Below, one piece after another: positions 9,965 to 30,887 of a stretch of DNA of 64,000 nt (positions within the stretch are counted from its first letter, which is position 1; each line of letters begins with the position of its first letter). The notes below the pieces were generated by a model. It ran no database searches. It was not told the origin of the DNA and saw only the letters and a program-made list of their open reading frames with translations. The stretch lies in assembly GCA_021604505.1 (NCBI GenBank), contig BQJC01000002.1, positions 372,001 to 436,000 on the forward strand. Direction: 5' to 3'. This stretch comes from Nitrospinaceae bacterium (lineage in GTDB: Bacteria; Nitrospinota; Nitrospinia; Nitrospinales; VA-1). Made by a program: the position numbers and the translations under genes.

Positions 9965-10483
9965 AAAATCTTCGCGGCAGAAATTTTAAAGATTATTTTG
10001 GAGGGAAAGAAGTGCGTAATATATAAAACGAATTTTCTAAAATCAACTGGAAAAACGAAAGGAAAATTGATTTTTCTCTAACCCTTAAGTTAACAAAAGT
10101 ATTTTGTTGAAAAAAAATAAGGACAGTTTTAAAAATTTTTTAATTCTTCCTTCCGGTTCCTTTTTTAACGTTTACCTACCTTACTTTGGTTCCATTCCTT
10201 TTAGTTTAAAAAGGTTTACGTCTTCATGCCCTTGCTTTTTTTTATAATAAGCGAGAGGGAGAAAAGTCAAGCCCCAAGCGGAACTCAGGACCTTTCGCAT
10301 TGAGTAAGATTTCCTGATTTAAAATTATTTTGTCCTTTCAGGGTTGATTGCAGGGTTTTATTTAGCAAAAAAGAAGAAAAGTTTTTCGTCCATCCATCCT
10401 AAACGCGTGTCTGGGTTTTCCTTTCCAAAAGAGGGAACAAGCGTGTTCGCTTGTTCCCTCTTCTTTCCTTCCAAGGGTTTTCA
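9965..10483. other. Gene-free region upstream of dnaA and of the phage block
   Basis: About 520 AT-rich bases with long A and T runs separate divergent dnaA and the first phage gene. The dnaA promoter should lie here, but I cannot pick it confidently. No DnaA box matching TTATNCACA was seen. The only clear structure is the 15-bp hairpin at 10429-10462. This is the left junction of the phage-like block. I found no obvious attachment-site repeat. Confidence 0.6.
10429..10462. repeat. Perfect 15-bp hairpin at the left edge of the phage block
   Basis: AAGAGGGAACAAGCG, then a TGTT loop, then the exact reverse complement. A C/T-rich run (CTTTCCTTCC) follows rather than a pure T tract. It may be a terminator for transcription entering from either side or a regulatory hairpin for the endolysin gene, whose ATG lies 22 bases downstream. 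Confidence 0.7.
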
Positions 10484-10843
10484 ATGGGTGATTTGAGTAA
10501 AAATTTTTCACGCCGTGAATTTGCATGCCCCTGTGGCTGTGGATTTGATCAAATTCACATCGAATTAGTAAAACGCCTGCAAAAAATCAGAGAAAAACAC
10601 GGTCCGTTAGTCATCAATTCCGGGTGTCGCTGTGAGCGCCATAATGGTCGAATTGGCGGTGCCCCGGAGAGTTCTCATCTTGCCGGCTGGGCGGTCGACC
10701 TTCGTTGTTTAGGCAGTTTTTCACGGTTTGTTTTGATCCGGGTTTTGCTGAAGGAAGGGTTTCAAAGAATTGGAGTTGGAGGTAATTTTCTTCACGTGGA
10801 TGCCGATCCGGAAAAACCCCAAACCGTGATGTGGCTTTATTAA
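10484..10843 (+). CDS. Peptidase M15-family endolysin (D,D-carboxypeptidase-like)
   Basis: Predicted to cleave peptidoglycan cross-links or stem peptides at lysis. I chose the ATG at 10484 (M-G-D-L-S-K-N-F-S), with AAGGG upstream, over a TTG at 10451 that lies inside the hairpin. The 119-residue protein has the zinc-site pattern of Peptidase_M15_3: S-S-H-L-A-G-W-A-V-D in the middle and H-V-D near the end. An N-terminal Cys cluster (C-P-C-G-C-G) and C-R-C are also typical. It begins the rightward phage gene series and is followed by a holin-like gene. Confidence 0.85.
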   Translation: MGDLSKNFSRREFACPCGCGFDQIHIELVKRLQKIREKHGPLVINSGCRCERHNGRIGGAPESSHLAGWAVDLRCLGSFSRFVLIRVLLKEGFQRIGVGGNFLHVDADPEKPQTVMWLY

Positions 10844-10881
10844 CAAAGAGTTGGGTGCGATCCATTTATAGGAGGGAACGT

Positions 10882-11067
10882 ATGAAATGGCTGAAGGGAA
10901 AAAAGACCTACCTCGTTGCCGGGCTCATGGCCGCAGTGACTCTATTGCAATTGATAACCGGCGAGACCACCTTACAGGAATTCATCATGAGCGAGCACGT
11001 CGTTACATTGATGGAGGCTTTGGGGTTGAGCACATTGCGCGCAGGGATCGCCAAGCGCGTTGGATGA
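10882..11067 (+). CDS. Small one-TM protein, candidate holin
   Basis: The 61-residue protein starts at an ATG with a strong GGAGG ribosome-binding site seven bases upstream. A short Lys-rich N-terminus leads into one hydrophobic segment (residues ~9-25) and then an amphipathic tail. Size, single TM and position directly after the endolysin suggest a holin or lysis accessory protein. There is no specific family motif, so the role is inferred from context. Confidence 0.55.
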   Translation: MKWLKGKKTYLVAGLMAAVTLLQLITGETTLQEFIMSEHVVTLMEALGLSTLRAGIAKRVG

Positions 11068-11102
11068 GCGGTTTCCCGGACAATCAATCTGGGTCGTCAA
11101 AC

Positions 11103-11501
11103 ATGAACACGGTATTTATCATTAAAAAATTTTTTAAAGTGTTTTTTTGTGCCGGGTTTTTTGGGCTCGCTATGGGGTCCTCAGGTTTTGCTGAACCCTG
11201 CGCTTCTTCCCTGCCGTTTTCCAGCGCGCTGTTCTTTGACCTTCGGGCCAACGGTCAGATGCTTTCTCTTGACGATTGTAACGGAGACGGGGTGGCGGAT
11301 TATCAAACCAGCTGGACGGTTGTCGAATTTTTGGCGCATCCTTTGGCTTGCTCCGATCCTTATGATCCCCGGCATCTAATTGTTCCGCGTTCCGGTTTTT
11401 ACAGGATCGCCGCGGAACCAGTGAAGGTTGTGGTTTTGCCGGGAAGAGGAGCAGGGAGCGCGCCGCATTCCAGCTCTCTTCAATCCGGAGGCCGCTGGTG
11501 A
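11103..11501 (+). CDS. Small secreted protein with calcium-loop-like motif
   Basis: 132 residues from the ATG at 11103. An in-frame ATG at 11064, which overlaps the previous stop as ATGA, would add 13 residues before the signal peptide and cannot be excluded. The N-terminus is a signal peptide, predicted to end after G-F-A. The mature part has D-D-C-N-G-D-G-V-A-D-Y, which resembles a D-x-N-x-D-G-x-x-D calcium loop as in thrombospondin type 3 or EF-hand loops. I do not recognise the family. It lies in the lysis/packaging segment of the phage block and its stop overlaps the next start (GTGA). Confidence 0.55.
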   Translation: MNTVFIIKKFFKVFFCAGFFGLAMGSSGFAEPCASSLPFSSALFFDLRANGQMLSLDDCNGDGVADYQTSWTVVEFLAHPLACSDPYDPRHLIVPRSGFYRIAAEPVKVVVLPGRGAGSAPHSSSLQSGGRW

Positions 11502-11938
11502 CCCATGACGCAGGCGAAGCCCTAAAGGACATGAAGAAACTGCTGAAAGAAGCCGGGAGCTGTAAAAGGATCATTAAAAAAAAAATAAAGGCCGAACCTG
11601 ACAATCTAAATGCGCACCGAGTGTATTGCACCTACATTCGCCGGACTCTTGAAATTCAAAAAACCATGATCCAGGCCCAATCCATAGACCGGGAATTGTT
11701 TCTCATCGCTGTTCTCAAAAGCGTGGTGCTGACCCTCATTGAGAAAAAGGAAACCCAGGCGGCCGAGGTTGTCGGGCAACATCTGGAGGACATTGGTGAA
11801 AAAGTACGAGAGAAATGGCAGGATTCAACAGAGCTAAGCAAGGCTATAGCGAAATCAGAACGCTCATCCAATCGGCAGTCACCCCCTTCAGGGACCAATC
11901 GCCGCGCAAAAAGCAGCAACGCGTCGAACGCGCCCTGA
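11498..11938 (+). CDS. Small helical phage protein, possible small terminase subunit
   Basis: The 146-residue protein begins at a GTG that overlaps the upstream stop codon. It is mostly charged alpha-helix, with a Lys-rich N-terminus, a hydrophobic central helix and a Ser/Arg/Asn-rich C-terminal tail. Its 3' end overlaps the large terminase gene by 124 bases in another frame. The position just before the large subunit suggests a small terminase subunit, which would recognise DNA for packaging. No recognisable HTH is visible, so this is contextual. Confidence 0.45.
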   Translation: MTHDAGEALKDMKKLLKEAGSCKRIIKKKIKAEPDNLNAHRVYCTYIRRTLEIQKTMIQAQSIDRELFLIAVLKSVVLTLIEKKETQAAEVVGQHLEDIGEKVREKWQDSTELSKAIAKSERSSNRQSPPSGTNRRAKSSNASNAP

Positions 11939-13419
11939 CAGAACTCGCTTTTTTTGCTCGAACCTATTTCCCTCATCATCTGACAGAAAAATCTTCCGTC
12001 ATGCATGAGGAAATGCTTGAAAAATTCCGCAAGCGTATCCTGCATGCAGAGGCAACGAAAAAAGGAGCGAGAGACGTTCACGCGGCCCCCAGAGGGCACG
12101 CTAAATCAACATTGGCCACGCTTATTCTCCCGCTTTGGTGCATTGTTGCCAGGCATCGCCGGTTTATTTGCCTAATTTCCGACACTACGGAACAGGCAGC
12201 GGAATTTTTAGAATCCATCAAAGCCGAACTTGAGGTCAACGAACGGTTGCGGGAGGACTTTCCGGAAGCCTGCGGTGAAGGGCGGACCTGGAAGGCCGGA
12301 AAGGTCGTCACTCAAAACGGAGTGAAGGTCGCCTGCTGGGGCAAACGCAAACGATTGCGCGGTGTTCGTTATGGAAGCCGTCGTCCCGATCTGGTGATCC
12401 TGGACGATCTGGAAAACGATGAACACATAGACTCCCCGGAACAAAGGGAAAAGGATCGAAAATGGTTTTTTAAAGCGGTCATGAAAGTTGGCGGTAAATA
12501 CACCGTCACCATCGTCGTAGGAACGATCCTCCACCACGACTCGCTTTTGGCCCGGTTGCTCAAACAGCCGGGATGGACGGGTAAAAAGTGGCAGGCCGTC
12601 ATCCGCTGGTCGAGTTCCAGGCTCTGGGACCGTTGGGAGACGCTATTTTCGAATCCCGCGAACGATGACGCCGAGAAAGAGGCGGATCAATTTTTTGCGG
12701 ATCATCATGCGGCCATGCTGGCAGGCACGCAGGTTCTTTGGCCGGAAGTAGAGCCTTATGACTATCTGATGAAAATGCGGGTGTCTGACGGACCGGCTTT
12801 TTTTGATTCTGAGAAACAGAACGAGCCCATTGCTCCCGATGATTGCCTGTTCCAGGAGGACTGGTTTTCTTTTTGCGACGAAGAGGTCGTTGCTCTAAGT
12901 CTCTCAAAAGGCGAGTACCGGGGTTGTTATTGCGCTATCGATCCTTCCATGGGGCATGCGTCCAGAAAATCCGATCCCTCCGCCATCCTCATCGGCGGGG
13001 TCTTAGAGAGCGGTGTGATCGATATTTTGGAGGCGGATATCGAAAGATGCCACCCCGATCGCATCATGGAGAAACTGTTTCAATACCAGGAAAATTATAA
13101 ATTCGACCGCATCGTGATCGAAGAGGTGCAGTTTCAGGAGTTGTTCAAGGACCAGGTCATTAAAGAAGGAGCAAAAAGAGGAATTTATTTAGCCGTTCAC
13201 GGTGTCAGACCCAATTCCGACAAAACACTGAGAATTTCCAAACTGCAGCCCCATATCAAAAACGGGCTGATCCGCTTTCGAAAGCGCGACCGCGTGCTTC
13301 TCGATCAGCTCAAATACTTTCCTAAAGCCGACCACGACGACGGCCCCGATGCCCTGGAAATGCTGTTCAGTCTGGTCGCTTCAGGCAGAAATGGACCCCG
13401 AATACGGAGAATCGGCTAA
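11815..13419 (+). CDS. Phage terminase large subunit
   Basis: DNA-packaging motor ATPase and nuclease of 534 residues. The N-terminal ATPase has an adenine-contact-like segment (F-F-A-R-T-Y-F-P-H-H, ~46-55), Walker A A-P-R-G-H-A-K-S (91-98) and Walker B L-V-I-L-D-D-L-E (193-200). The C-terminal RNase H-fold nuclease has A-I-D-P-S (Asp376), I-V-I-E-E-V and a final D-H-D-D-G-P-D-A-L-E. The whole reading frame is intact with all catalytic residues, so packaging could be functional. It overlaps the upstream gene by 124 bases; later starts would remove the conserved N-terminal segment. Confidence 0.93.
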   Translation: MAGFNRAKQGYSEIRTLIQSAVTPFRDQSPRKKQQRVERALTELAFFARTYFPHHLTEKSSVMHEEMLEKFRKRILHAEATKKGARDVHAAPRGHAKSTLATLILPLWCIVARHRRFICLISDTTEQAAEFLESIKAELEVNERLREDFPEACGEGRTWKAGKVVTQNGVKVACWGKRKRLRGVRYGSRRPDLVILDDLENDEHIDSPEQREKDRKWFFKAVMKVGGKYTVTIVVGTILHHDSLLARLLKQPGWTGKKWQAVIRWSSSRLWDRWETLFSNPANDDAEKEADQFFADHHAAMLAGTQVLWPEVEPYDYLMKMRVSDGPAFFDSEKQNEPIAPDDCLFQEDWFSFCDEEVVALSLSKGEYRGCYCAIDPSMGHASRKSDPSAILIGGVLESGVIDILEADIERCHPDRIMEKLFQYQENYKFDRIVIEEVQFQELFKDQVIKEGAKRGIYLAVHGVRPNSDKTLRISKLQPHIKNGLIRFRKRDRVLLDQLKYFPKADHDDGPDALEMLFSLVASGRNGPRIRRIG

Positions 13420-13613: not shown

Positions 13614-14123
13614 ATGCCCGTCGCAAATACAGTCGAAGCCAATATCATCGTCAACTTTGACGATCGATTGACCGGTCCTTCGCAAAAAGCTTTTGAGAAG
13701 TTTAAACGGCACGCGCAGTCGGTTTTTCGAGCCGTTTCCGCATCAGGAGTATCAGCATTTCAAAAAATAAAATCCGCACAGCAGTCGGCTCTAAAAGTTA
13801 ACAGCGCGCCCAGTCGCGGCCCCGGGGGGCTCATCCCCATCAATGACAATCCGTTAGGGCTGAACCTGGAGCCACAGTTTGAAGTGCCTTCCTTCGCTTC
13901 CGGCATACGTTTCGTGCCCCGCGACATGCTGGCCGAGATACACAAAGGGGAAACCGTGCTATCTAAACCCCAGGCGGAGCAGTTTCGTCAAAGCGGCTCG
14001 TCCGGGGACAATATCACGTTTCAAATCACCAGCGGGTTCACGCCCGATCAGGCGACTGCCCGAAAATTCGCCCGCATGATCGAAGACGAACGCATTCGTT
14101 TGAACGAAAGAAAAACCTCCTGA
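13614..14123 (+). CDS. Very short tape-measure-like protein
   Basis: 169 residues. The C-terminal half contains F-A-S-G-I-R-F-V-P-R-D-M-L-A-E-I-H-K-G-E and then T-V-L-S-K, the pattern that ends many tail tape measure proteins (G-x-x-Y/F-V-P...H-x-G-E-x-V). The N-terminal ~60 residues form a helical region like a tape measure N-terminus. The long central repeat region is missing. No other tape measure is present after the tail chaperones, where one is normally found. Its place between terminase and portal is unusual. It may be a true mini-tape measure, as in gene transfer agents with short tails, or a deleted remnant. Confidence 0.6.
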   Translation: MPVANTVEANIIVNFDDRLTGPSQKAFEKFKRHAQSVFRAVSASGVSAFQKIKSAQQSALKVNSAPSRGPGGLIPINDNPLGLNLEPQFEVPSFASGIRFVPRDMLAEIHKGETVLSKPQAEQFRQSGSSGDNITFQITSGFTPDQATARKFARMIEDERIRLNERKTS

Positions 14124-14191: not shown

Positions 14192-15397
14192 ATGAAACTT
14201 TTTCAATGGTTTAAAAATAGAAACACGAAACAAAGCGCCATCACCCGGGCGCTCACGATGTTTCTGCCGCTTGGCCAGGGAATTTCCAGCAACACGGATT
14301 ATGCCTCCCTCGCCAGGGAAGGTTACGGGAAAAACAGCGTTGTCTTTGCCTGCATCAAGGAAATCGCCCAGGCCGCGGCAGGGGTCGACTGGCTGCTTTA
14401 TCAGTTACAGCCCAATGGCGCCCGCAAGGAGATCGCCACTCATCCGTTGCTCAAGTTGATTGCTAGACCCAATCCCCTGCAGGGAAAATTCGAATTTATC
14501 GAAGCCGTGGTCGGCTACCTTTACCTTTCCGGGAATTCCTATTTGGAAATGGTGGGGCCGGGTTCTTCGGCTCTGGAAAATGGGAACTCCCTGCCACGAG
14601 AAATGTATGCTCTGCGTCCGGATCGCATGCGTGTACTTCCGCATGCAGTGAACCTGATCGCGGGTTACGAGTACCGCGTCAAAGGTCAGAGCCTCAGGCT
14701 TTCCAGAGATCAGGTCCTGCATTTGAAACTGTTTCATCCAGAAGACGACTGGTATGGATTGTCACCGGTCCAGGTGGCGGCGCTGGCGATCGATAAAATC
14801 AACACGGGTGACAAATGGAATTCTGCGCTTTTACAAAATTCCGCCGTTCCCTCCGGCGCTCTGGTGTCCAAGGAACGGTTGACCGACGATCAGTTCAACC
14901 GATTAAAAACGGAAATGCGGGAACAGATTCAAGGCGTTCAAAATGCCAGGGAGCCTCTTCTTTTGGAGCAGGATCTGGATTGGAAGGAACTCGGTATCTC
15001 GCCCAGGGACATGGACTGGATCGAGGGTTTAAAGTTCAGCGCCCTGCAAATCGCCCAGGTCTACAATGTCCCCCCGGAATTGATCGGCCTGCAGCCGGCC
15101 ACTTATCAAAACCGCCGGGAAGGCAGAAAAGCGCTGTACACCGAGGTCGTCTGCCCGGCATTAAACCGTTTACGCGATGCCTTCAACAATGGGTTGACAC
15201 CAAAATTCGGACAAAATCTTTTCCTGGATTATGACAAGGACAGGATCGAAGCCCTGGCGGAGGATCAGGAATCGTTATGGAAGCGTGCCAATGAAAGTCA
15301 TTTTTTGACTCTCAATGAAAAACGACATCTGGTTGGATTCGAAGAACTTCCCGGCGGCGATGTTTTAGCGGCCCCTGAAAAAAATTCCCCCTCTTAA
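14192..15397 (+). CDS. Phage portal protein (HK97 family)
   Basis: Dodecameric portal at the capsid vertex through which DNA is packaged. 401 residues, the usual size for the HK97 portal family. Typical elements: V-V-F-A-C-I-K-E-I-A (~47-56), P-L-L-K-L-I-A-R-P-N-P, a G-N-S-Y-L-E segment, the long-stem helix region around I-D-W-I/I-E-G-L-K-F, and V-P-P-E-L-I-G followed by a Y-x-N-R-R-E motif. The reading frame is intact. It lies upstream of the protease and capsid genes, in the standard order. Confidence 0.93.
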   Translation: MKLFQWFKNRNTKQSAITRALTMFLPLGQGISSNTDYASLAREGYGKNSVVFACIKEIAQAAAGVDWLLYQLQPNGARKEIATHPLLKLIARPNPLQGKFEFIEAVVGYLYLSGNSYLEMVGPGSSALENGNSLPREMYALRPDRMRVLPHAVNLIAGYEYRVKGQSLRLSRDQVLHLKLFHPEDDWYGLSPVQVAALAIDKINTGDKWNSALLQNSAVPSGALVSKERLTDDQFNRLKTEMREQIQGVQNAREPLLLEQDLDWKELGISPRDMDWIEGLKFSALQIAQVYNVPPELIGLQPATYQNRREGRKALYTEVVCPALNRLRDAFNNGLTPKFGQNLFLDYDKDRIEALAEDQESLWKRANESHFLTLNEKRHLVGFEELPGGDVLAAPEKNSPS

Positions 15398-15404: not shown

Positions 15405-16109
15405 ATGGAATCTTGTATGAAAGAAATCAAATCCTTTCCCTTTAAAATCGACCAGGTTGCTGACTCTGGAGAGTTCACAGGCTACGCCTCTACGTTTGGC
15501 GAAACCGATCTTGGCGGTGATGTGGTAGAAAAGGGATCGTTTAAAAAAACGCTTCGGGAAAGCCGGGGCGCCATTCCCGTATTGGACCATCACGACCCCA
15601 CCCGGCAGATCGGCTGGAATCTGGAAGCGAAAGAAGACAGCCGCGGCCTTTTGGTCCGTGGTCTGCTCGATCTCAACGTCCGGGTGGCCAGGGAACGCCA
15701 TTCTCTGATGAAAATGGCGGTTCAAGTGGGAGGGCGGACGGGGTTTTCCATAGGGTTCAGAAGCATCAAGGAAGAACCCGATAAAAACAATCCAATGATC
15801 CGCCGTTTGAAGGAAATTCAACTCTTCGAGTACAGCATCGTCACCTTTCCCATGAATCCGCAAGCCGCCGTGACCACGGTCAAAGCCAGGCAGGAACTTC
15901 TTGATCAGTTTCTGCGCCAGGAGATCGGGTTGGACAAACAACGCACCCGGCGGGCTCTTGAGGATTTAAAGTCACTCCTTTGCGCGGAGCCGGAACCCCA
16001 CTCCGCAAAGAACCCAGGAGCCGACCTTTACGGTTCACACGCCGACTTCATGGACGCATCGCTTCTTGCTTCCATGAAAAATCTTTTAACCACTTTTAAA
16101 ACTCAATAA
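15405..16109 (+). CDS. HK97-family prohead maturation protease
   Basis: Serine protease that cleaves the capsid scaffold domain. 234 residues from the ATG at 15405; the ATG at 15417 has a better-spaced purine run and is an alternative start. The family motifs are present: G-Y-A-S-T-F near the N-terminus, L-D-H-H-D-P-T-R-Q-I-G (His62/His63) and F-E-Y-S-I-V-T-F-P-M-N-P (Ser144 as likely nucleophile). The C-terminal ~70 residues are variable. It sits 8 bases after the portal gene. Confidence 0.92.
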   Translation: MESCMKEIKSFPFKIDQVADSGEFTGYASTFGETDLGGDVVEKGSFKKTLRESRGAIPVLDHHDPTRQIGWNLEAKEDSRGLLVRGLLDLNVRVARERHSLMKMAVQVGGRTGFSIGFRSIKEEPDKNNPMIRRLKEIQLFEYSIVTFPMNPQAAVTTVKARQELLDQFLRQEIGLDKQRTRRALEDLKSLLCAEPEPHSAKNPGADLYGSHADFMDASLLASMKNLLTTFKTQ

Positions 16110-16196: not shown

Positions 16197-17390
16197 ATGA
16201 ATGAAATCAAGGAACTCGTGGATGAGCTGAATCATGCTTTCCGTGCGCACAAAACAAAAAACGATCAACGCCTGGCGGAACTGGAGAAAAAAGGCCGGGT
16301 CGATCCCTTGCTGGAAGAGCAGGTGGACCGCATTTCCAGCGAAATCCAAAGCCTCATGGATGTCAAAGAAGGTCTGGACAATGTCAGAACCCAGCTCAAC
16401 CGCCCGGGATTTGAAGTCAGCCGGGATTTTCTGGACCCGCTCGCAGAATCAAAGAAAGCCGCCGTTGCAAAATATTTGCGAAAAGGCGAGGGGGCCATGA
16501 GCGACAGCGAGATCAAACTCCTCGCCACAGACAGTGACCCGGAGGGCGGCTACTGGGTGACCTCCGGGATGTCCAACCAGGTCATCAGCAAAGTGTTCGA
16601 AACCTCCCCGATGCGCAACATCGCTACGGTGCAAACGGTTTCGAGCGATGCTCTTGAGATTCCCGACGACTTGGGCGAAGCTGACGCCGGCTGGACCACG
16701 GAACGCGGAGTGCGTTCAGAAACCGACACGCCCATGATCGGCACCCGCCGTTTTCCGGTGCATGAGCTTTACGCCATGCCCAAGGCCACCCAGTCCCTGC
16801 TCGATGATGCCCGCATCGATGTGGAGAGCTGGTTGTCTGCCAAGGTGGCAGACAAACTGTCCCGGCTCGAAAACAGCGCTTTCATCAACGGCGACGGCGT
16901 GGGCAAACCCCGGGGCATTTTGACTTATCCGGCAGGGACCACCAATCCGGGCGAGGTCCAGCAGGTCAATTCGGGCAGCGCCGCGGCGCTCACAGCCGAT
17001 GGCCTTCGTACGGTGGCCTACGCGCTCAAAAGCCCTTACCTCAAAAACGCCCGCTGGGTGATGAACCGTTCCAGCGTGGAGGCCATCTCCAAGCTCAAGG
17101 ATTCCTCCGGACAATATCTCTGGCAGCCTTCTTTGGAGGCCGGCGAAATGCAAACGCTTCTGGGATATCCGATCGAACGCATGGAAGACATGCCCGCCGT
17201 CGCCGCGAATTCCCTTTCCCTGGCGTTTGGTGATTTCAGGCAGGCCTACACCATTGTCGACCGCATGGGGGTTCGGGTTTTGCGCGATCCTTTCAGTGCC
17301 AAACCGTTTGTGCTGTTCTACACCACGAAACGCACCGGCGGCGACGTGACCAACTTTGAAGCGCTGGTGATTCAAAAAACTGCCGCCTGA
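16197..17390 (+). CDS. Major capsid protein (HK97 fold)
   Basis: 397 residues. Residues ~1-95 are a charged coiled coil that corresponds to the HK97 delta/scaffold domain removed by the protease. The mature part starts near the G-G-Y-W-V-T segment, with M-R-N-I-A-T-V and a later G-x-G-x-x-x-P-R-G-I-L-T-Y motif (N-G-D-G-V-G-K-P-R-G-I) typical of phage capsid proteins. It has a good ribosome-binding site (AAGGAG). The codon use and GC-rich composition match the chromosomal host genes around it. Confidence 0.93.
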   Translation: MNEIKELVDELNHAFRAHKTKNDQRLAELEKKGRVDPLLEEQVDRISSEIQSLMDVKEGLDNVRTQLNRPGFEVSRDFLDPLAESKKAAVAKYLRKGEGAMSDSEIKLLATDSDPEGGYWVTSGMSNQVISKVFETSPMRNIATVQTVSSDALEIPDDLGEADAGWTTERGVRSETDTPMIGTRRFPVHELYAMPKATQSLLDDARIDVESWLSAKVADKLSRLENSAFINGDGVGKPRGILTYPAGTTNPGEVQQVNSGSAAALTADGLRTVAYALKSPYLKNARWVMNRSSVEAISKLKDSSGQYLWQPSLEAGEMQTLLGYPIERMEDMPAVAANSLSLAFGDFRQAYTIVDRMGVRVLRDPFSAKPFVLFYTTKRTGGDVTNFEALVIQKTAA

Positions 17391-17496: not shown

Positions 17497-17514
17497 GATT
17501 AAAGGAGAAAAAAT

Positions 17515-22475: not shown

Positions 22476-25318
22476 TGCGCACGGACTTCACCACAGCTTT
22501 CGATACGGAGAAGGACAAAAAGGCGCACGCCCCGGTCACCTTGATGAAAATCGACTGGCCCGCCATCGGCGCTTTGCCTGCCCTGACGCTTCGTCTCGCG
22601 GACCGGGGAGCAGATGCCGACAATGCCAAACTCACGATCAACGGCACCGACTGGCACGCCGTGATCGAGGATGCAGGCGAACTTGACCGGCTGGTGGACG
22701 CCGGAAACTTTTCCGCAAACTCGGTGGCCGATCTTAAAGTGACGCTCACCAATCTGCCAACGGCGTTGTTCAGTCCGGCAAAGCCGTTCAGCTATGTTTT
22801 TGACGAACGGCCCCCGGAATCGGCAACGGTCACCGTTTACCAATGGTTTGAAGGGTTGCTGGAGGCGGATATATCGGAGATTTTTGTTGGCCGTATCGCC
22901 GATCCCATCGGTTTCGATGAAAGCACCTGCTCCTTCGACCTTGTGGATATCGCGGGCACCCACGGCAGTGCCGTGGTCGGCAATCTGATCAACTTAACGG
23001 ATTATCCAAACGCGCCTCAATCCTCCATCGGTAAAATGAAACCCATCGTCATCGGTGAAGTGAACAATGCGCCTTCTATTCTGGTCCGGCAAGCGCAGGA
23101 AACGAAAGTGGCTTCCGTCGCCGCTCCCGGTGACAGCACCCTGACGGTTGCGGATACATCCGATTTTAACGTGTCCGGCACGCTGAAACTGAACGATGAT
23201 GAAGTCGCCTATACGGGGAAGACGGCCACGACTTTCACCGGGTGCACGGGCATCAACGAATTTCATTTTGCCGGCGATGTGGTTCTGGAAAAGATCAGCG
23301 ACCATCGCTATCTGTTCAGCGACCCGGACTATCCCATCAAACAGATCAGCGGTGTTTCCGTGGATGGTCATTTAGCAGATGCGGGAGATTACACTTTGGA
23401 TCTTCCCAACGGCGAGGTGGTGTTTAATAAGAAGCCTGAGAAATCGGATTCGGTCGATACTAAGTTTCTTCAAGCGCAGTTCGACGCCATTGGAACGGGC
23501 AACAACGCCGTTGATCCTTTAAATGCCGCGAACCCCAATACTCGAACCTCTTATGCAAAGATAAGCCAGGCGACCCCCACTCTTTCGCTGAAGCAGACTG
23601 ATGTCATGCCGGTCATCGGGATGATCGGCAAAGTCAAACTTCGTGTGGAGCATTTTGTCGAAGAAAAACTGCCGAACGACAATCTTTCAGTGGATATCGT
23701 CGGCATTGGCCAGGTGGGGACTCTGTCGCCCCCGGCTATGGATGATGGCATTGGCAGTCAAGGGAACGTCGACATCACCCACACGCATCTCGATTCTCTG
23801 GGGTTTCCCATCACCGACCCGACGCATGAGCACGTTCTGCCAAGGAAAACCGAGGTCACGCAAACAGCCACCGCCGGGCTCGATGCGGATGGTTTTGCGA
23901 TCGACAGCCTGAATCCGACCCATAACATCACCTTCCCCGCCGCGCCTTCTGGAACGATCGACTCGGTGGAATACAATGTGAACTTTGAAGCCCACACAGT
24001 CAGCGGCAGTGTCGGTCAGACGTTGACTTTAAAGGCGTCCGGCGGGCAGTTCGATATTTTCAAAATCGGCGCATCAGGAGTGAACACCTACACCCCGAAC
24101 GGAACCCTGACCCAGGCGCCGACGACAGTGACCATCAGTAAGTCTTTGGCCAGCGCCATTGTCAAGCTGTTCAATCTCACAAGAACCATCACACTCACAC
24201 CGGAAGAGGACACCGATGTTCAATCGACGGGAGTGTCGACTTCCAAAACCGGCGCCGTCACGCAACACAGTTCCACTCCCGGTGTCGGCGGAACGGTGGA
24301 AAAAAACACCAGCACCATCGTCGATTTCATCGATATCACAAGTCAGGTTGCCGGGGACTGGTCCTGGTTCACCAATAAGGAAGTCGAGGTCAAATACAAC
24401 GGGACCTCCGATGGCAGAACCGTTTTCATCATTCACGTGGCATTCGAAATCGAGTATGCCCGGCGGCGGTTGAGCTTTACCGATAATGTCACCGCTCTCG
24501 TTGAAGGTGTGAAGGACGACGGCTCTGGAAGCGTCACCGGTACGGCGGATGCCTTGATCGAACGGCCCGACCACGTTTTCAAATGGTCTCTGTTCAATCT
24601 ATTGGGTTTAACCGCATCCGAAGTCAACGCAACATCTTTTGCGCAAGCGGGGATCGATTTTTCAGGCGCCTTCACGGGAGGCTACAGACTGGCCGGGATC
24701 ATCCAGAAAAAAATTGAGATCAAAAAACTCTGGCGGAATTGGGAGGTGAACTGCCGTGCCTATTTTTTCTGGGACCTGGGAAAGGCCGGGATTCAGTTTC
24801 GTCCCATCAACCAGATCAGTCTGCCGTTCACCGCCGATAAAACCATCCTCGAAAACATGATTCGTCTGGATGAAAACGGCCGCGCCAGCCTCCGTTGCGA
24901 ACGCACGCCGAACCGCCACATCGTGAACACCATCGATTTAAGGTACGACCGCGACTGGTCTTCCGGCGAATACAGTTCAATGGCGCACGGAAGCGATGCG
25001 GATTCCATCACCCGTTACGGACGCCGGGAGAAACCGGACGATTTCGAATTTGATTGGACCCGGGTTCAGGCACAGGCTGAGGATCTGGTGGTTTTCTTCC
25101 TGGCCCAGTATAAGGAGCCCTCGGACGTTTTGGAGTTGGAATTGTTTTTAGACAACATTGAGCTTGAACGCGGCGACCTTTTAAAAATCAGTCCCTCCAC
25201 GCATGAAGGTGTTGATCTTCCGGGTTTGGTCCTGGGGGTGGGAAGAAAAATTGGATCGGGAAAAAGACGTCGAATGGATTCCGTGCCGGTTTCGGTCCAG
25301 CTCATGCGAGTTGTTTAA
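22475..25318 (+). CDS. Large tail tip/hub protein
   Basis: 947 residues, the largest protein of the block. The N-terminal ~200 residues are beta-rich with F-V-G-R-I-A-D-P-I-G and F-D-L-V-D-I-A-G, like tail-hub domains. The middle (~430-650) is Thr/Ser/Gly-rich with many short strands and several H-T-H, D-P-T-H-E-H motifs, likely an exposed or fibre-like region. The C-terminus (D-N-I-E-L-E-R-G-D-L-L-K-I-S) matches the ending of baseplate hub proteins, where the phrase marks a switch into a final strand. It should contact the host surface or form the tail tip. It is intact. Confidence 0.65.
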   Translation: MRTDFTTAFDTEKDKKAHAPVTLMKIDWPAIGALPALTLRLADRGADADNAKLTINGTDWHAVIEDAGELDRLVDAGNFSANSVADLKVTLTNLPTALFSPAKPFSYVFDERPPESATVTVYQWFEGLLEADISEIFVGRIADPIGFDESTCSFDLVDIAGTHGSAVVGNLINLTDYPNAPQSSIGKMKPIVIGEVNNAPSILVRQAQETKVASVAAPGDSTLTVADTSDFNVSGTLKLNDDEVAYTGKTATTFTGCTGINEFHFAGDVVLEKISDHRYLFSDPDYPIKQISGVSVDGHLADAGDYTLDLPNGEVVFNKKPEKSDSVDTKFLQAQFDAIGTGNNAVDPLNAANPNTRTSYAKISQATPTLSLKQTDVMPVIGMIGKVKLRVEHFVEEKLPNDNLSVDIVGIGQVGTLSPPAMDDGIGSQGNVDITHTHLDSLGFPITDPTHEHVLPRKTEVTQTATAGLDADGFAIDSLNPTHNITFPAAPSGTIDSVEYNVNFEAHTVSGSVGQTLTLKASGGQFDIFKIGASGVNTYTPNGTLTQAPTTVTISKSLASAIVKLFNLTRTITLTPEEDTDVQSTGVSTSKTGAVTQHSSTPGVGGTVEKNTSTIVDFIDITSQVAGDWSWFTNKEVEVKYNGTSDGRTVFIIHVAFEIEYARRRLSFTDNVTALVEGVKDDGSGSVTGTADALIERPDHVFKWSLFNLLGLTASEVNATSFAQAGIDFSGAFTGGYRLAGIIQKKIEIKKLWRNWEVNCRAYFFWDLGKAGIQFRPINQISLPFTADKTILENMIRLDENGRASLRCERTPNRHIVNTIDLRYDRDWSSGEYSSMAHGSDADSITRYGRREKPDDFEFDWTRVQAQAEDLVVFFLAQYKEPSDVLELELFLDNIELERGDLLKISPSTHEGVDLPGLVLGVGRKIGSGKRRRMDSVPVSVQLMRVV

Positions 25319-25343
25319 TGATTTTTAATTGAGGATTAGCAAA

Positions 25344-25775
25344 GTGAAAAAATTTACTTTCTTAATTTTTACAGCCTTAATTTTTGCAGGCATGCACTCC
25401 AGCTCGCAGGCCTTTGTCATGGAAGTTGCGAAAAAGTGGGACAACGTGGCAGTGGCTCCGGATGTGGATTGGTTTTCTGAGGATTTGGCGCCATCGACAG
25501 ACGTTGAACGCCGCGGGATGACTTCTCATTTCAGCGCCCCGGTCAAGCATACGTTTGAGTTTTCCTGCCCGCTGGAAACTGCGGTCAATTTACAAATGAA
25601 ATACAACGCCATCACGAAAGTGTTTAATTTTAATGATGGGGAACCCATCGGCGCGAACGATGGAAACCAGTATTCGGTTATCCTGCACAGTGGCATGTCT
25701 TATAACATTCAGCATAAAACTGCGACCCAGGCCTGCTCTGTGATCATCACCGAATCCTTTAATGTGGATTTATAA
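25344..25775 (+). CDS. Small secreted protein of the tail module
   Basis: I chose the GTG at 25344, preceded by GAGGA at good spacing, over an upstream TTG at 25329. The 143-residue protein has a clear signal peptide (K-K-F-T-F-L-I-F-T-A) that likely ends after S-S-S-Q-A. The mature part is beta-rich with one early and one late Cys, possibly a disulfide. Family unknown. A signal peptide is not expected for a virion protein, so this is likely exported by the host. Confidence 0.55.
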   Translation: MKKFTFLIFTALIFAGMHSSSQAFVMEVAKKWDNVAVAPDVDWFSEDLAPSTDVERRGMTSHFSAPVKHTFEFSCPLETAVNLQMKYNAITKVFNFNDGEPIGANDGNQYSVILHSGMSYNIQHKTATQACSVIITESFNVDL

Positions 25776-25785
25776 AAGGTGAATC

Positions 25786-27048
25786 ATGAATAGACGGTTT
25801 TTATTTTTCATTTTGATTTTCTTTTTTTCTGGAAATACGTTTGCCACGCCAATGCAGGGTCTGGGGATCAAAAAACACAACACGCGGGTGTCCGCATTTT
25901 CTCCACTTCCAGGCCTTGTTGAAACGCGGATCACCGATTTTCGTTTCGGACATGGATTTACCAAACAATCCGCCGCCGGAACGCAGACCGATGACACGAC
26001 AGCTCATCTTAATGGAACGCAAAGCCTGAGACTGGCGACCGACGGAGATGGAGTGGCCGTTTTTTCAAGGAGCGGTTTGTTCTCTCCAGCGCTTGATTTG
26101 ACGAACCAATCCTTGGTGATGCGGTTAAAGACCGGTGACATAGCGAATACGAGTGAAATCACAATCTACCTTTCCAGCGACAATTTTTCAGCGAATTGGT
26201 ACATTTTCCCGTTCGATGATCCGGCCACGAATTTCTACAAAGATGGAGAGTGGGTGGTTGTCACCATGAATTTTTCCGACGCCACCGTGACGGGCAGTCC
26301 TGACCGTGCGGGCATCAATAAAATCCAGTTGCGGGTCAAGGATAATTCCAGCACGGCGGTTGCAATTAATTTTGCCAGCCTGGGTTCTATTCCCGAACCG
26401 GGAAACGGCATGTTGTCTTTTACTTTCGATGATGGTTGGCTCAGTCAATACGACGAGGCGAAAAAGAAAATGTCAGAATTTGGTTTTCCCGGCACGGCTT
26501 ATATTATTAAAGATAATGTTGGACAACCTGGATTCCTTTCGCTCAACCAAATGCGGGAGTTGGAAGACCTTCACGGCTGGGAAATGGCAACGCATCATGG
26601 AACTAATTTGACGACGGTGTCGCTGTCCGAAGCGGAGTCTCGTATTCGATCCGAAAAGCAGTGGTTGATCGACCACGGGTTCAATCGCGGCGTCGATCAT
26701 TTTGCGATCCCCAATGGAGCATTCAATCAAGACCTGATGAATTTGTTCAAAAAATATTTTCGTACCGCGAGAACCATTGCGCCAACAGGGGAAACCTTCC
26801 CTCCGGCGGATTGGCATCGCTTGCGTGTGCTGAATGTAATTAATACAACCACGACCACGCAAATTGCCAGCGCCGTCGATGATGCCAGGACGAATAAATA
26901 CTGGTTGATTCTCTTATTTCACAAGATTGTCGTTTCACCTTCGGCGAGCACCGAATATTCCATTGCCGACTTTGAAACCGTGGTGAACGACATTGCCGCG
27001 GATGGAATCGCGGTAAAAACAATTTCCCAGGCGATCATCGATGGGTGA
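25786..27048 (+). CDS. Secreted polysaccharide deacetylase (NodB homology domain)
   Basis: 420 residues with a signal peptide of ~20 residues (cleavage near T-F-A). Residues ~40-200 form a beta-rich, possibly carbohydrate-binding, region. The C-terminal half is a NodB-type deacetylase: T-F-D-D-G supplies the metal and catalytic Asp, a T-H-H motif follows, I-P-N-G corresponds to the R-x-P-x-G motif, and L-F-H-K is the late His motif. The second His of the usual H-x3-H is not evident, so activity is plausible but not certain. Predicted to remove N-acetyl or O-acetyl groups from an extracellular polysaccharide. It ends the rightward structural series. Confidence 0.8.
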   Translation: MNRRFLFFILIFFFSGNTFATPMQGLGIKKHNTRVSAFSPLPGLVETRITDFRFGHGFTKQSAAGTQTDDTTAHLNGTQSLRLATDGDGVAVFSRSGLFSPALDLTNQSLVMRLKTGDIANTSEITIYLSSDNFSANWYIFPFDDPATNFYKDGEWVVVTMNFSDATVTGSPDRAGINKIQLRVKDNSSTAVAINFASLGSIPEPGNGMLSFTFDDGWLSQYDEAKKKMSEFGFPGTAYIIKDNVGQPGFLSLNQMRELEDLHGWEMATHHGTNLTTVSLSEAESRIRSEKQWLIDHGFNRGVDHFAIPNGAFNQDLMNLFKKYFRTARTIAPTGETFPPADWHRLRVLNVINTTTTTQIASAVDDARTNKYWLILLFHKIVVSPSASTEYSIADFETVVNDIAADGIAVKTISQAIIDG

Positions 27049-27138: not shown

Positions 27139-28026
27139 TTACAATTCCTTCCACGCGCCGATGACGCGACCGACAATCGGATCGGGGTGCTCCTGAAGTT
27201 CGATGATCTGCACATCAAAAGCGGGGTTGATGGAACGCAGAATCAACAGCTCTTTTTTCCGTTCTACATACTTGGCGGTCAAACCGTCTTCATGAAAGAT
27301 AGCGTAGATTTTGTTTTTCTGGATACGTTTGTCGTCCCGGTCGATGACCACGATGTCTCCGGAGTGGAGCATCGGTTCCATGGATTCTCCGTCCACCCGG
27401 CTGGCGACCAGGTTCTTGCGTTTGCCGGAGGCCCGGATATGAAGGAGAACATAATCTTCAATTTTATCGGCCTGAATGATCGGTTGGCCGGCGGCAATGG
27501 CGGATTCTGTGAGGGGTATGGAAACGTAATCCTCTTCCCGGAGTTTGGGGGCGTTTTCAGTGTTTGCGGCTTGAAAGATTTTCAGTTCCGGGGCCTGAAC
27601 CGGATGACTGTCTTGTTCTACCAGAAATTCATACGGCGGCACATTCAGCCTTTTTGCCAGATGGTAAAAAAGCACCCAGGGGATTTGTGCCCGCCCTTTC
27701 TCATAAAGTTCCAAAACTTTGGAATTGATCTCCACCTTGGCGGCTAAATCATCCAGAGACCATCCGAGCTTCTTACGCAGTTGTTTGATTTTTTTCCCGG
27801 TTTTTAAAATTAATTTGTTGGTTTTTGTTTCGCCGGCGACCAGCCAATGGAAATCCACCTGGAAATGGTGAGCTATTTTTTCCAATGACCGGGTGTCCGG
27901 CGGGGTTTGTCTTTGTGAGCTTTTTTTCATTGCCTGGTAATTCAGGCCAACGTTTTTGCAAAACGCAGTGAGCGACTGGCCTTCCTGGAGAAGGCCGATT
28001 CGATTCCATAAAAATTTGTCGGGCAT
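27139..28026 (-). CDS. LexA/CI-like repressor with two HTH domains
   Basis: Phage-type repressor, 295 residues from the ATG at 28026. The C-terminal S24 domain has an Ala-Gly cleavage site (I-A-A-G-Q-P, ~178-180), nucleophile Ser215 in D-G-E-S-M-E-P and Lys252 in L-T-A-K-Y-V, so RecA-stimulated self-cleavage is expected. It carries two tandem Cro/CI-like HTH regions: residues ~5-65 (S-L-T-A-F-C-K-N-V-G-L-N-Y) and ~77-137 (L-G-W-S-L-D-D-L-A-A-K-V). CI repressors normally have one. An operator lies in the divergent promoter region at 28050-28135. Confidence 0.88.
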   Translation of the reverse strand: MPDKFLWNRIGLLQEGQSLTAFCKNVGLNYQAMKKSSQRQTPPDTRSLEKIAHHFQVDFHWLVAGETKTNKLILKTGKKIKQLRKKLGWSLDDLAAKVEINSKVLELYEKGRAQIPWVLFYHLAKRLNVPPYEFLVEQDSHPVQAPELKIFQAANTENAPKLREEDYVSIPLTESAIAAGQPIIQADKIEDYVLLHIRASGKRKNLVASRVDGESMEPMLHSGDIVVIDRDDKRIQKNKIYAIFHEDGLTAKYVERKKELLILRSINPAFDVQIIELQEHPDPIVGRVIGAWKEL

Positions 28027-28049
28027 GGAGAAAAATCTAAAAAAAGGTA

Positions 28050-28078
28050 TTGACGCAAGGGGACAAATGTCCCATAAT
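28050..28078 (+). promoter_or_regulatory. Rightward promoter with operator in its spacer
   Basis: -35 TTGACG (28050-28055), a 17-base spacer and -10 CATAAT (28073-28078). The palindrome GGGACA-aa-TGTCCC (28060-28073) fills the spacer, so a bound repressor would block RNA polymerase. It should drive the SMC-like gene at 28173 and those after it. Confidence 0.7.
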
Positions 28079-28100
28079 AAAAAGTGAAAAGAGGCAGATG

Positions 28101-28135
28101 TCCCCATGGGGAATTGCCGCTGATGAAGTATAGCA
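28101..28135 (-). promoter_or_regulatory. Leftward repressor promoter and second palindrome
   Basis: On the minus strand an extended -10 element TGCTATACT occupies 28135-28127 with no clear -35. The perfect 12-base palindrome TCCCCATGGGGA (28101-28112) follows at about the transcription start. ATGTCCC occurs in both this site and the spacer operator, suggesting one repressor binds both and autoregulates. Confidence 0.45.
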
Positions 28136-28172: not shown

Positions 28173-30083
28173 ATGATCAGGCAATTAACCAATCACGGAT
28201 TCAAGGATCAGATACGTACATTGCAGCTGTCCGGGCTCGACCTCATCACCTCCGATGACGTCAACGGCGTTGGCAAATCGGCGGTTCTGGAGGCCTTTAA
28301 GCTGGCATTGACGGGAGAGGTTCCGGGGCGGGCCAAAACGGTGGATGATATTTTGCAGTTCACTTCTTTCGATGAAATGAAGGTGGGGGTTGTGGCGGAC
28401 CCCGGGAATGGACCGGTGAGCGTCGAGCGGGGATTCCTGCGCCATGCGCCGCAAGGAGAAAAACGGCCTGTATGGATCGATCACAGGCCCCGGAAATATG
28501 AAGAAGGCGGGCATTGGGTGCGTGAGCGCATCGGTCCGGTTTCCTTGAGTTTTGATTTTTTCGAGTTCTTGAATCTTTCCGATGCCAAAAAACGCCAGTG
28601 GATCATTGCCCACTCTCCCGAATCCGAGGAGTTGAGCCAGAGGGGGTTATACCTTTTGCTGTTGGTCCGAATGGTTGAAAAATACCTGGGGTCGGGGATC
28701 ATCCACTCCTTGTTGCTATCCCTGGGAATGTCTTCTTTAAACGAAATATTTGCAGTGCGGGATGCAAACGATTTGTCTCGCTTGCACCATCAGTTGCGGG
28801 AAATTTTTCATAGCCAGGAGCCGAAGCATGCGGCGCTGACGCAAAAAATATTAAACCAGGTGTTTCAATATGGGTCTCCTTCAGAGTCGGCGGAAAGAAA
28901 CAGCAGCGCCATGCTCAAGCAATTGAAGGCGGAGACCTTGCGGTTAAAAAATGCTGTTCGCGAACAAACCGCCGCGCTCTCTTGCATGGGGTCTGTATCG
29001 AAAAATGATCGAACGGAAAACCTTCAGAACATTTCCGATTGCCGGGAAAAGATTTGTGCCTTGAACAAAACGGTCGAAGACTTTGAAGATCGCCTGCAAA
29101 AAACTCGCATGCACTTGGCTGAGAAAGGGTCTACCGCTTTAAAAGAACACGAGTTCGCACTTAGGCGATTGTCAGTGGAGTTGAGGCTAAAGCGCGACAA
29201 GCACGAAAATTCAGGTCCTTCGCATTTCACCTGTCCTGTGGCTCGGCAAGTCCGGTGCGATACGGACATGGCACCTTACCGCGAAATCCTGGGCGAGGAG
29301 ATTGAGGCGTTGATGAAACAGGAAGCGGAAACTCGAAAGTCGCTGTCAACCGCCAAGGCTCAGCGCATTGTTAAATTCTGTCAGGACGAATGCACCCGGT
29401 TGCCAGTGGATTCAAACCGAATGCCTGGAAAACAAGCCGAGATAGCAACCCTGGAAAAAGAAAAGAGAGTTCTTAAAGCTCAGAGAGACAAGATTCAGAA
29501 AGTCCTCGACGACCACCTTCGTCAGGAAGGGAGATGCGAAGTCTTTGTTGAGCTCAAACGGAAAAAGAAACAATGTGAAGAGGAGCTCAAAATTGTTAAA
29601 CAGGTGGCCGAACTGCTCAGCGGCGTTCAGGAGGAAATGGCGTCGCGCATTGCCGGAGCTTTGGAAACGGAAGTGAACGAAACCCTCAAATGGATCGACA
29701 GCGATCATGAGTTCATTCTCAGCTTGCGCGGCAAGCAATTTGAAATGGGGTGGAACCGCAATGGAAAGATCATTCCCTTCAATACGATCAACTCTGCGCA
29801 TTTCATTATTTTTATCGTTCCCTTTATGGTTGCGTTGATAAACCGCATGGCCGCCGTCCGGAAAGAGTCCGGTTTGCCGACATTGAGAGCCCTTTGCATT
29901 GAAGCGGAATCTCTGACTCCGGGAAATCTGAGGGCTCTGTTGAAGGGGTTGGCGACTATGAAGAAGCGGGGAGGGATCGATAACGTATTAGTGGCGCATT
30001 ATCACTCGGTCCGCGATGCTGAGAAATTATTTGGATTTCAGGAGCATATTCTTGAAGAAAGCGGATCTTCAGTCCTGGCTTGA
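28173..30083 (+). CDS. SMC/RecF-like ATPase, phage-encoded
   Basis: 636 residues. The N-terminus has a Walker A D-V-N-G-V-G-K-S (29-36) in an SMC/Rad50-like context, then two long charged coiled-coil stretches (~255-350 and ~425-505). A Cys pair (C-P-V-A-R-Q-V-R-C) lies at the turn, like a hook or zinc site. The C-terminal lobe has L-C-I-E-A-E-S-L in place of a normal Walker B, and the usual S-G-G-Q/E signature is not recognisable (N-S-A-H instead). It may be a specialised recombination/DNA-repair ATPase in the RecN/SbcC/gp46 style. It is the first gene under the repressed rightward promoter. Confidence 0.7.
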   Translation: MIRQLTNHGFKDQIRTLQLSGLDLITSDDVNGVGKSAVLEAFKLALTGEVPGRAKTVDDILQFTSFDEMKVGVVADPGNGPVSVERGFLRHAPQGEKRPVWIDHRPRKYEEGGHWVRERIGPVSLSFDFFEFLNLSDAKKRQWIIAHSPESEELSQRGLYLLLLVRMVEKYLGSGIIHSLLLSLGMSSLNEIFAVRDANDLSRLHHQLREIFHSQEPKHAALTQKILNQVFQYGSPSESAERNSSAMLKQLKAETLRLKNAVREQTAALSCMGSVSKNDRTENLQNISDCREKICALNKTVEDFEDRLQKTRMHLAEKGSTALKEHEFALRRLSVELRLKRDKHENSGPSHFTCPVARQVRCDTDMAPYREILGEEIEALMKQEAETRKSLSTAKAQRIVKFCQDECTRLPVDSNRMPGKQAEIATLEKEKRVLKAQRDKIQKVLDDHLRQEGRCEVFVELKRKKKQCEEELKIVKQVAELLSGVQEEMASRIAGALETEVNETLKWIDSDHEFILSLRGKQFEMGWNRNGKIIPFNTINSAHFIIFIVPFMVALINRMAAVRKESGLPTLRALCIEAESLTPGNLRALLKGLATMKKRGGIDNVLVAHYHSVRDAEKLFGFQEHILEESGSSVLA

Positions 30084-30100
30084 TTTAATAGGTTTTTTCT

Positions 30101-30544
30101 ATGGGAAGGTTCAAACGCATGAAACAAAGAGAAGAAACCGGATTGCAAAACCAATCCAAGCGCTTGCTTGAGTGCAAGGTCCGCATGATTTCTCTGGAAA
30201 ACGGAGAAACTGTCAAGCGCGGATGCGGTCGTGCCGGACTGATGGCCTCTGAGGTAGGGTGGCATTGTTTTTACTGTGGAAATTATATTTATCAAACGAA
30301 CCCCACGCTTGATGCCCTGTGGTTTCATTTTAAAATCGCCCGGGAATACTGGCGAGCCATGAGCCGCGAGGATAAAAATTATATAAATGGCGTGCCTGTT
30401 TCCGGGTTTCCCGAATTTTTGCCGCGCCGCCTGCTGGCGGATCTGGCGGAAGCTCGTCCTCCTAAATGGTTTCGTTTTTACCTGGTATACGATGAAGAAC
30501 AATTCCAAAAATATCTCGAAACGCAAGACGGGCAAAACCGCTGA
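30101..30544 (+). CDS. Zinc-ribbon phage protein
   Basis: 147 residues from the ATG at 30101; the ATG at 30119, preceded by GGAAGG, is an alternative start. Cys25, C42 (R-G-C-G-R) and C56-x2-C59 (W-H-C-F-Y-C-G-N-Y) form a probable zinc site, in the pattern seen in small phage DNA- or RNA-binding proteins. Function unknown. Its 3' end overlaps the next gene by 53 bases. Confidence 0.6.
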   Translation: MGRFKRMKQREETGLQNQSKRLLECKVRMISLENGETVKRGCGRAGLMASEVGWHCFYCGNYIYQTNPTLDALWFHFKIAREYWRAMSREDKNYINGVPVSGFPEFLPRRLLADLAEARPPKWFRFYLVYDEEQFQKYLETQDGQNR

Positions 30545-30887
30545 CTGGGAAAAAGACCCCAAACTGGAAGCTCCCATCGAAGATTCCCGGTGGGACGCGC
30601 AGTTGAGTTTTGCATCGCATGGAGTTTTGGAATCGCTGGGCGGCAATCTTCCCGATGGGGAGGCGCCTGGAGACTTTTTTCCGAGAGATCAAAATTCGCA
30701 CTTAAAAGATATACGCATCAATCTTGGCGAGTTGGACCTCACCGACAGGCAGTTGATGGCGGTGAGCCTGGTGTTTTATGGCGGTGTAAAAAAGAACCGT
30801 GCCGCCCGGGCGATGCAAATCACCAGTCAGGCGTTGACGGATCACATCAACGCGGCGCTCAAAAAAATCAGCCGCAGTCTGGCGTGA
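30492..30887 (+). CDS. Sigma-region-4-like HTH protein
   Basis: 131 residues from the ATG at 30492. The C-terminal ~55 residues read L-T-D-R-Q-L-M-A-V-S and then N-R-A-A-R-A-M-Q-I-T-S-Q-A-L-T-D-H-I, the layout of sigma-70 region 4 (L-x3-x-x2-V...A-A-x2-L-x-I-S-x2-x-V). It lacks the other sigma domains, so it may be a late-gene activator, an anti-sigma-like regulator or a small sigma factor that drives the structural genes. It is the last gene of the rightward early series. Confidence 0.6.
   Translation: MKNNSKNISKRKTGKTADWEKDPKLEAPIEDSRWDAQLSFASHGVLESLGGNLPDGEAPGDFFPRDQNSHLKDIRINLGELDLTDRQLMAVSLVFYGGVKKNRAARAMQITSQALTDHINAALKKISRSLA

Follow-up and report, generated by a model that had tools for sequence, protein, structure and literature searches.

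A vertically inherited phage-like gene cluster beside dnaA in Nitrospinota, probably a gene transfer agent

We analysed a stretch of 64,000 nucleotides from a Nitrospinaceae bacterium of the phylum Nitrospinota (BQJC01000002.1, 372,001-436,000; genome G000), hereafter the window, to whose positions all coordinates refer unless another locus is named. At 10451-30887 the window holds a compact phage-like cluster of lysis, packaging, head, connector, tail, tail-tip and regulatory genes, which the original prediction, made from the window alone, had taken for a domesticated element resembling a gene transfer agent (GTA). Comparison with related genomes supports that proposal. Vertical inheritance and selection are near certain; that the cluster is a tailed-phage descendant beside dnaA, independently domesticated and functionally a GTA, is probable. 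Judging from the sequences, a gene-transfer role is likely, and would involve induction, packaging of host DNA and delivery.

In the scheme that we favor, a tailed phage would have entered beside dnaA before the families of the Nitrospinota order split, and would since then have served as a host gene set making small phage-like particles. An S24 repressor would keep the cluster silent until DNA damage led to its self-cleavage, whereupon a divergent operon and a sigma-like activator would switch on the structural operon. The large terminase, TerL, would pack HK97 capsids headful-wise with host DNA, which is the expected cargo because the cluster is without replication or excision genes that could supply phage DNA. 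The heads would then receive a short tail, whose tip is gpJ-like, and endolysin and holin would free the particles from a few cells.

Inheritance and selection

The main packaging and head proteins share the history of their hosts. For 19 genomes from three families that have RpoB, portal and capsid, a tree of TerL, portal, protease and capsid was compared with a tree of RpoB, whose gene lies far from the cluster. All 16 internal splits are common to the two trees; 2000 random trees gave a mean of 0.28 common splits and a maximum of 4. Distances for the cluster and for RpoB are correlated (Mantel r 0.93, reached by 0 of 10,000 permutations), with the cluster evolving about twice as fast as RpoB, whose pairwise distances run up to ca. 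0.5 substitutions per site.

The ratio of nonsynonymous to synonymous substitutions (dN/dS), calculated by the Nei-Gojobori method for 13 pairs in which dS was unsaturated, was 0.03-0.13 for TerL, 0.03-0.11 for portal and 0.02-0.10 for capsid, as against 0.03-0.06 for DnaA; single values are rough, because dS exceeds 1 in many other pairs. The least diverged pair (G064-G065, dS ca. 0.4-0.5) gave 0.04, 0.05 and 0.06 for TerL, portal and capsid, respectively. The small head and tail proteins are looser, with values up to 0.38 in the small-terminase candidate. In a capsid tree, the Nitrospinota cluster capsids, 11 IMG/VR fragments and a copy from genome G003 form one clade, with 47 phage capsids outside it (support 0.988). 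Both points that the original prediction had named to be looked for in related genomes, namely that inheritance is vertical and that capsid and terminase are under purifying selection, are thus seen. Order-wide synteny, tree congruence and dN/dS together led us to reject a recent prophage.

A fixed locus, with losses and rearrangements

Searched for in 60 relatives, TerL was detected in 26; the capsid gene is present in 28 of the 64 genomes of the order and in none of the 13 genomes from the rest of the phylum. Of these 28, 27 are cluster copies, with one close copy per genome. The 28th, in G003, is a lone, divergent (59%) HK97-type capsid of 399 amino acids, encoded between polysaccharide genes and a CRP-like regulator (L094:9875-11071; G003:C1) with no other cluster gene within 20 kb, and is possibly a separately kept shell protein.

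The locus is fixed. In each of the 22 genomes whose capsid and dnaA genes share a contig, TerL adjoins dnaA and the cluster then follows, with several kilobases between TerL and portal in G044 and G046. Where the contig extends far enough, etfB closes the cluster (G000, G002, G011, G019, G025, G037, G040, G044, G050); it was not found in the fetched stretches of G006, G014 and G018. Outside the order, in the other 13 genomes of the phylum, dnaA and etfB were on separate contigs wherever both were found.

Eleven genomes have dnaA adjoining etfB without the cluster (G001, G017, G020, G021, G023, G024, G027, G030, G060, G066, G068), and four of these sites (G021, G024, G030, G066) hold scars, i.e., fragments of cluster genes. 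On a DnaA tree of 44 genomes, rooted on G038, ancestral presence requires about 10 complete losses. According to the original prediction, a flanking integrase or att repeats, or close relatives with a clean empty site, would speak against a domesticated element. No flanking integrase or att repeat was found; an empty site does occur in G001, the closest relative by DnaA (86%). It is best read as a later deletion, because the locus of the cluster is the same in three families, scars are present at other empty sites, and the host and cluster trees agree.

Decay is plain in four further genomes. What is left in G005 is an endolysin, a TerL that is broken and part of a regulator; G048 has TerL and part of a repressor; regulators persist in G049 and G038, the repressor of G038 having two stops. 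Together with the lack of integrase and replication genes, such copies are what one would expect of an ordinary defective prophage that came to lie beside dnaA by integration and is decaying after the loss of its integrase. Against this, TerL, portal and capsid are open and strongly purified over many lineages, and the cluster occurs order-wide at one locus with host-congruent trees. A neutral remnant would not have outlasted a divergence that reaches ca. 0.5 substitutions per site in RpoB, and we consider a defective prophage very unlikely.

Two genomes depart from the usual arrangement. In G039, TerL lies beside dnaA, and the genes from portal to hub are inside another contig, of 128 kb, after unrelated host genes. 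In G043, the stretch from portal to adaptor comes after pilin- and secretion-like genes, and TerL is on a separate small contig, so that the cluster is probably split over two loci. Both are metagenome-assembled genomes (MAGs), and the splits could therefore be misassemblies. The competence gene ComEC, found in 30 of 37 genomes, occurs in cluster-bearing and cluster-free genomes alike and is uninformative.

Absence of mobility genes

As the original prediction had it, no integrase, transposase or replication gene is visible. A Pfam search for phage integrase gave no match in the window, the nearest being a 161-amino-acid frame ca. 10.7 kb past its right end, and a PHROGs scan of 30 window open reading frames (ORFs), 26 of them in the block, gave no integration, transposition or replication family inside it. 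No att-like direct repeats were found to flank the cluster. Thus, neither an integrase or transposase nor attachment sites, by which an active temperate prophage is recognized, are present. The composition is host-like, as had been noted, with a guanine-plus-cytosine fraction of 0.49-0.54 over most of the block and ca. 0.44-0.54 outside. The palindromes inside the block that had been described as resembling repetitive extragenic palindromic elements did not hold up: the sequence at 17425-17530 is single-copy in the genome and has no inverted repeat, and the one strong palindrome is a terminator-like hairpin at the edge.

Lysis, packaging and head genes

Packaging, head, tail and lysis genes were rightly recognized from the outset, and include an M15 endolysin, TerL, portal, S78 protease, HK97 capsid, connectors and tube. 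On the + strand, the order is endolysin, holin candidate, small-terminase candidate, TerL, a 169-amino-acid ORF, portal, protease, capsid, connectors, tube, chaperone candidates, a distal-tail pair and the hub. The hub is followed by genes for two secreted-looking proteins, by the S24 repressor gene on the - strand, and then by one for a divergent AAA protein and two more small genes. The genes described below are on the + strand unless stated otherwise.

The first gene encodes an M15 peptidase endolysin (10484..10843; PF08291, 1.4e-17; phrog_894). It is followed by a small hydrophobic protein (10831..11067) with matches in 17 other genomes, one of them a fragment, which by sequence and position is a candidate holin. 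The small-terminase candidate (11498..11938; alignment of 15) precedes TerL, the listed start of which falls within the 3' end of the candidate; its model is all-helical, with a mean predicted local distance difference test score (pLDDT) of 70 and a predicted template modelling score of 0.32.

TerL (11815..13419) matches phrog_38 at 2.7e-111, and its Walker-type and acidic nuclease-type residues, which we take to be catalytic, are invariant in 19 of 19 aligned rows. Two relatives have unusual TerL genes: in G045 (L093:13580-15412) the match is in two pieces around an in-frame insertion of ca. 70-90 codons, and in G042 (L095:1258-4752) it is likewise in two pieces, the C-terminal one being duplicated. 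The head is encoded by portal (14192..15397; PF04860, 6e-78), S78 prohead protease (15405..16109; PF04586, 1.5e-25) and HK97 major capsid protein (16197..17390; PF05065, 1.7e-84) genes, and the best solved match of the capsid profile is the RcGTA capsid (2e-92). A conserved head-associated protein (17515..17889; phrog_5707) and a head-tail adaptor (18265..18933; PF05135, phrog_442) follow.

Tail genes

The tail genes begin with a Neck1/tail completion protein (18997..19461; phrog_5) and a protein that, by position, would be the tail terminator (19488..19964), which is syntenic in relatives and matched no family. The tail tube has 347 amino acids (20005..21048; PF18906, 2.7e-10). Two small genes conserved as a pair (21100..21776) are, from their position, candidate tail assembly chaperones, and two distal-tail proteins (21784..22475) adjoin the hub, with which they are kept in families f1, f2 and f4, in the phage contig L218 (IMG/VR 3300022697_000367) and in L199, a prophage of G040.

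The 947-amino-acid tail-tip or central hub protein (22475..25318) gave a model with a mean pLDDT of 75, for which Foldseek found the lambda tail tip (1.5e-14) and an RcGTA particle chain (9e-6). The candidacy of this protein as tape measure was rejected on these tail-tip matches. The short tape measure claimed in the original prediction therefore does not apply to it, and instead suits the 169-amino-acid ORF between TerL and portal (13614..14123; weak match to phrog_25966). Relatives of this tape-measure candidate in 13 genomes have 169-383 amino acids, and its C-terminus resembles that of the 900-amino-acid tape measure of L218 (41%). The RcGTA tape measure is likewise short, at ca. 219 amino acids.

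Beyond the hub lie two genes (25329..27048) whose products look secreted, and the second product has a polysaccharide deacetylase domain (PF01522, 4e-9). Among the fetched loci the pair is genus-limited, to G000 and G002; the deacetylase (25786-27048) may act on a surface polysaccharide of producer or recipient.

Family f2 has trimmed the tail. Wherever an f2 genome has a hub (five genomes: G037, G040, G044, G046, G050), its cluster is without neck, terminator, tube, chaperones and tape measure, and the adaptor adjoins the distal-tail genes (L031:7486-13735, L029, L032, L026/L112, L027); the head and tail-tip genes that remain are under purifying selection. When the five whole genomes were searched for a tail tube, four gave no match, and the match in G040 belongs to a separate prophage that has a head of its own.

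What vertical inheritance and purifying selection demonstrate is a benefit to the host, not gene transfer itself, and a cluster with a lost tail tube in f2 and a tail tip that recombines with phages might have been domesticated for some other use, for example to kill competitors, to serve as decoys or for capsid storage. Neither a tail-like killer nor an empty shell, however, would need a DNA-packaging motor, and the cluster keeps terminase, portal and protease with invariant catalytic-type residues and low dN/dS; we therefore hold such other uses to be unlikely.

Regulatory genes

The LexA/CI-like repressor (27139..28107, - strand) has a helix-turn-helix (HTH) and an S24 peptidase domain (PF00717, 4.5e-19). 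Ser242, Lys279 and the pair Ala206-Gly207 are invariant in 15 of 15 aligned rows, one row with stops having been excluded. By analogy with LexA/CI-type proteins, the Ala-Gly pair would be the cleavage site and RecA the trigger. Divergent from the repressor is an AAA/SMC-like ATPase (28173..30083; PF13476, 4e-5, under the Pfam cut-off), which is optional, being found in five genomes plus G041. A conserved protein (30101..30544) adjoins the repressor in relatives. The last gene, 30387..30887, encodes a sigma-factor-like HTH protein (phrog_3512, 1e-4; NF004113, 7e-4, far under the cut-off), a candidate late activator by its presumed role. In the fetched loci, the repressor and its two small regulator genes are retained across several f1 and f2 genera. 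No palindrome common to the repressor and lysis promoters, as a shared operator would be, was found; the left palindrome at 10429-10462 was considered as operator and rejected, as it resembles a terminator.

Flanking DNA

The left flank consists of dnaA, gyrB and gyrA on the - strand, so that the position beside dnaA was correctly read. DnaA (8597..9964, - strand; Pfam Bac_DnaA, 6e-69) belongs to the host, and the cluster starts beyond dnaA in relatives too. Immediately 5' of the first cluster gene, the left edge is marked by a terminator-like hairpin with a 15-bp stem and a 4-nucleotide loop (10429..10462). Of the 17 relatives inspected, two (L014, L016) have a hairpin of different sequence at the corresponding place and two (L022, L025) have shorter hairpins in other positions.

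On the right, three unrelated ORFs, a DUF2461 gene, etfB, etfA, parA and parB follow in this order. The three ORFs (31191-33280) are absent from the fetched relatives; the first is TIGR04255 and the second weakly matches a candidate defence model. The host flank proper includes etfB and etfA (34138..36354; PF01012, PF00766), and two parS-like sites lie directly upstream of parA, at 37081 and 37127 (37081-37142). No DnaA-box cluster was found in the window between dnaA and the cluster, where oriC was sought; the cluster is placed near the origin because of dnaA, parAB, the two parS-like sites and a turn in skew, not of DnaA boxes. A scan of the window for RNA families gave two tRNAs and nothing else.

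Relatives among phages and virus contigs

TerL relatives at 56-81% come from genomes labelled Nitrospinota, Nitrospinae, Nitrospinaceae and Nitrospina, and from one 'Nitrospirae' MAG, SZUA-350. Those from other phyla reach 54% in genomes and 56% in IMG/VR; of 18 genome-collection relatives outside Nitrospinota, none has another cluster gene in common. The best TerL relatives in phage collections are Pseudomonas transposable phages (DMS3, MP38 and others; ca. 42% identity). For the capsid, Azospirillum phage Cd and related HK97-type siphophages reach 46%, and are free phages with a different terminase and tail. Capsid relatives in IMG/VR at up to 50% share head genes only, often portal, protease and adaptor.

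Of 58 IMG/VR capsid matches, 11 have 66-72% identity, lengths of 4-10 kb and the gene order of the cluster. Such IMG/VR "viruses" (L115-L125, L219, L220/L223), the 11 among them, are fragments of the chromosomal Nitrospinota cluster. A 7.3-kb IMG/VR contig, L222, has TerL at 61%, portal at 56% and capsid at 59%, and could be either a deeper Nitrospinota copy or a phage.

Close relatives of the tail tip do occur in phages. L218 has the tail-tip module (6553-13078) at 61/52/69%, with an unrelated head and the long tape measure mentioned above; its hub groups with the window's genus in a hub tree and is 59-88% identical over most of its length and 23-26% in the middle, which is probably the receptor-binding part. 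The G040 prophage L199 (G040:C12:12000-31999) has a related tail tip (44/30/36%) and tube (43%), an unrelated head and a tape measure of ca. 575 amino acids. Such tail modules, common to the cluster, L218 and the G040 prophage, and the retained lysis genes and phage-type repressor would suit an active temperate phage family that inserts specifically at dnaA and co-diverges with its hosts. The evidence argues strongly against this: there is a single cluster per genome, all 16 splits track RpoB, and no integrase, transposase or att repeat was found. The 11 closest IMG/VR contigs are all short pieces in cluster order, and G039, with terminase and head/tail genes at different loci, has no single excisable genome. 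An active phage family is thus highly improbable, and a host-inherited GTA remains the favored reading.

Several points weigh against that reading. More than half of the genomes in the order are without the cluster, which is thus dispensable. Without a tail tube in the f2 cluster, delivery in that family would need another route, and the 69% match to the L218 tail tip implies tail-tip exchange between phages and the element, in one direction or the other. The small-terminase candidate found no convincing family or fold match, with nothing below E 2 in the fold search, and the G065 capsid copy is flagged with an internal stop. A bias toward low-carbon amino acids, described for RcGTA-like structural proteins in PMC9662315, is not seen: capsids average 4.885 carbons per residue (n=24) vs 4.821 in phages (n=47), and TerL is equal at 5.178 (n=25) vs 5.181 (n=17), both comparisons being confounded by base composition.

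Comparison with known gene transfer agents

GTAs are proven in few lineages, and sequence search recovers only relatives of RcGTA, according to reviewers (PMC11841831). No report of a GTA in this phylum was found in a search of titles and abstract openings on GTAs or prophages in Nitrospinota or nitrite oxidizers, whose coverage mostly leaves out subscription papers and preprints. If our reading is right, the cluster represents a separate domestication origin, detected by tests of vertical inheritance alone, and a route of gene exchange for Nitrospinota, which are major marine nitrite oxidizers and hard to culture. It would make testable the reasons for which hosts retain GTAs, the running of a GTA by a phage-type SOS switch, and a particle without a tail tube. 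That fragments of a host cluster are filed as viruses is relevant to marine virus catalogues. The chances seem about even for the fuller picture of a new, independent GTA lineage fixed near the origin, between dnaA-gyrBA and etfBA-parAB, with a LexA/CI-type switch, a terminase of transposable-phage type joined to an RcGTA-like head, a tail-less transfer particle in f2, and tail tips traded with free phages.

PMC9662315 defines GTAs by particle proteins derived from caudoviricetes, an endogenized and often multi-locus genome, co-diversification with the host, mostly random host DNA in the particles, a head holding less than the element's own genome, and DNA delivery. Three of these six features are found here, namely caudovirus-derived proteins, an endogenized genome and co-divergence. 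BaGTA of Bartonella and VSH-1 of Brachyspira, as described in the same review, are likewise domesticated, caudovirus-derived and host-inherited.

There is a close likeness in architecture to RcGTA, which also has a compact head-tail cluster of ca. 14-20 kb, an HK97 capsid, vertical inheritance and no replication or integration genes; a short tape-measure candidate and the RcGTA chains among the structural matches of the hub add to the resemblance. Unlike RcGTA, which belongs to Alphaproteobacteria (Rhodogtaviriformidae), the Nitrospinota cluster is in another phylum, at a locus fixed beside dnaA, and has a TerL nearest to that of DMS3-type transposable phages, a 347-amino-acid tail tube and another gene order. 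It also carries an S24 phage-type repressor inside the cluster, whereas RcGTA is under host regulators (PMC9662315).

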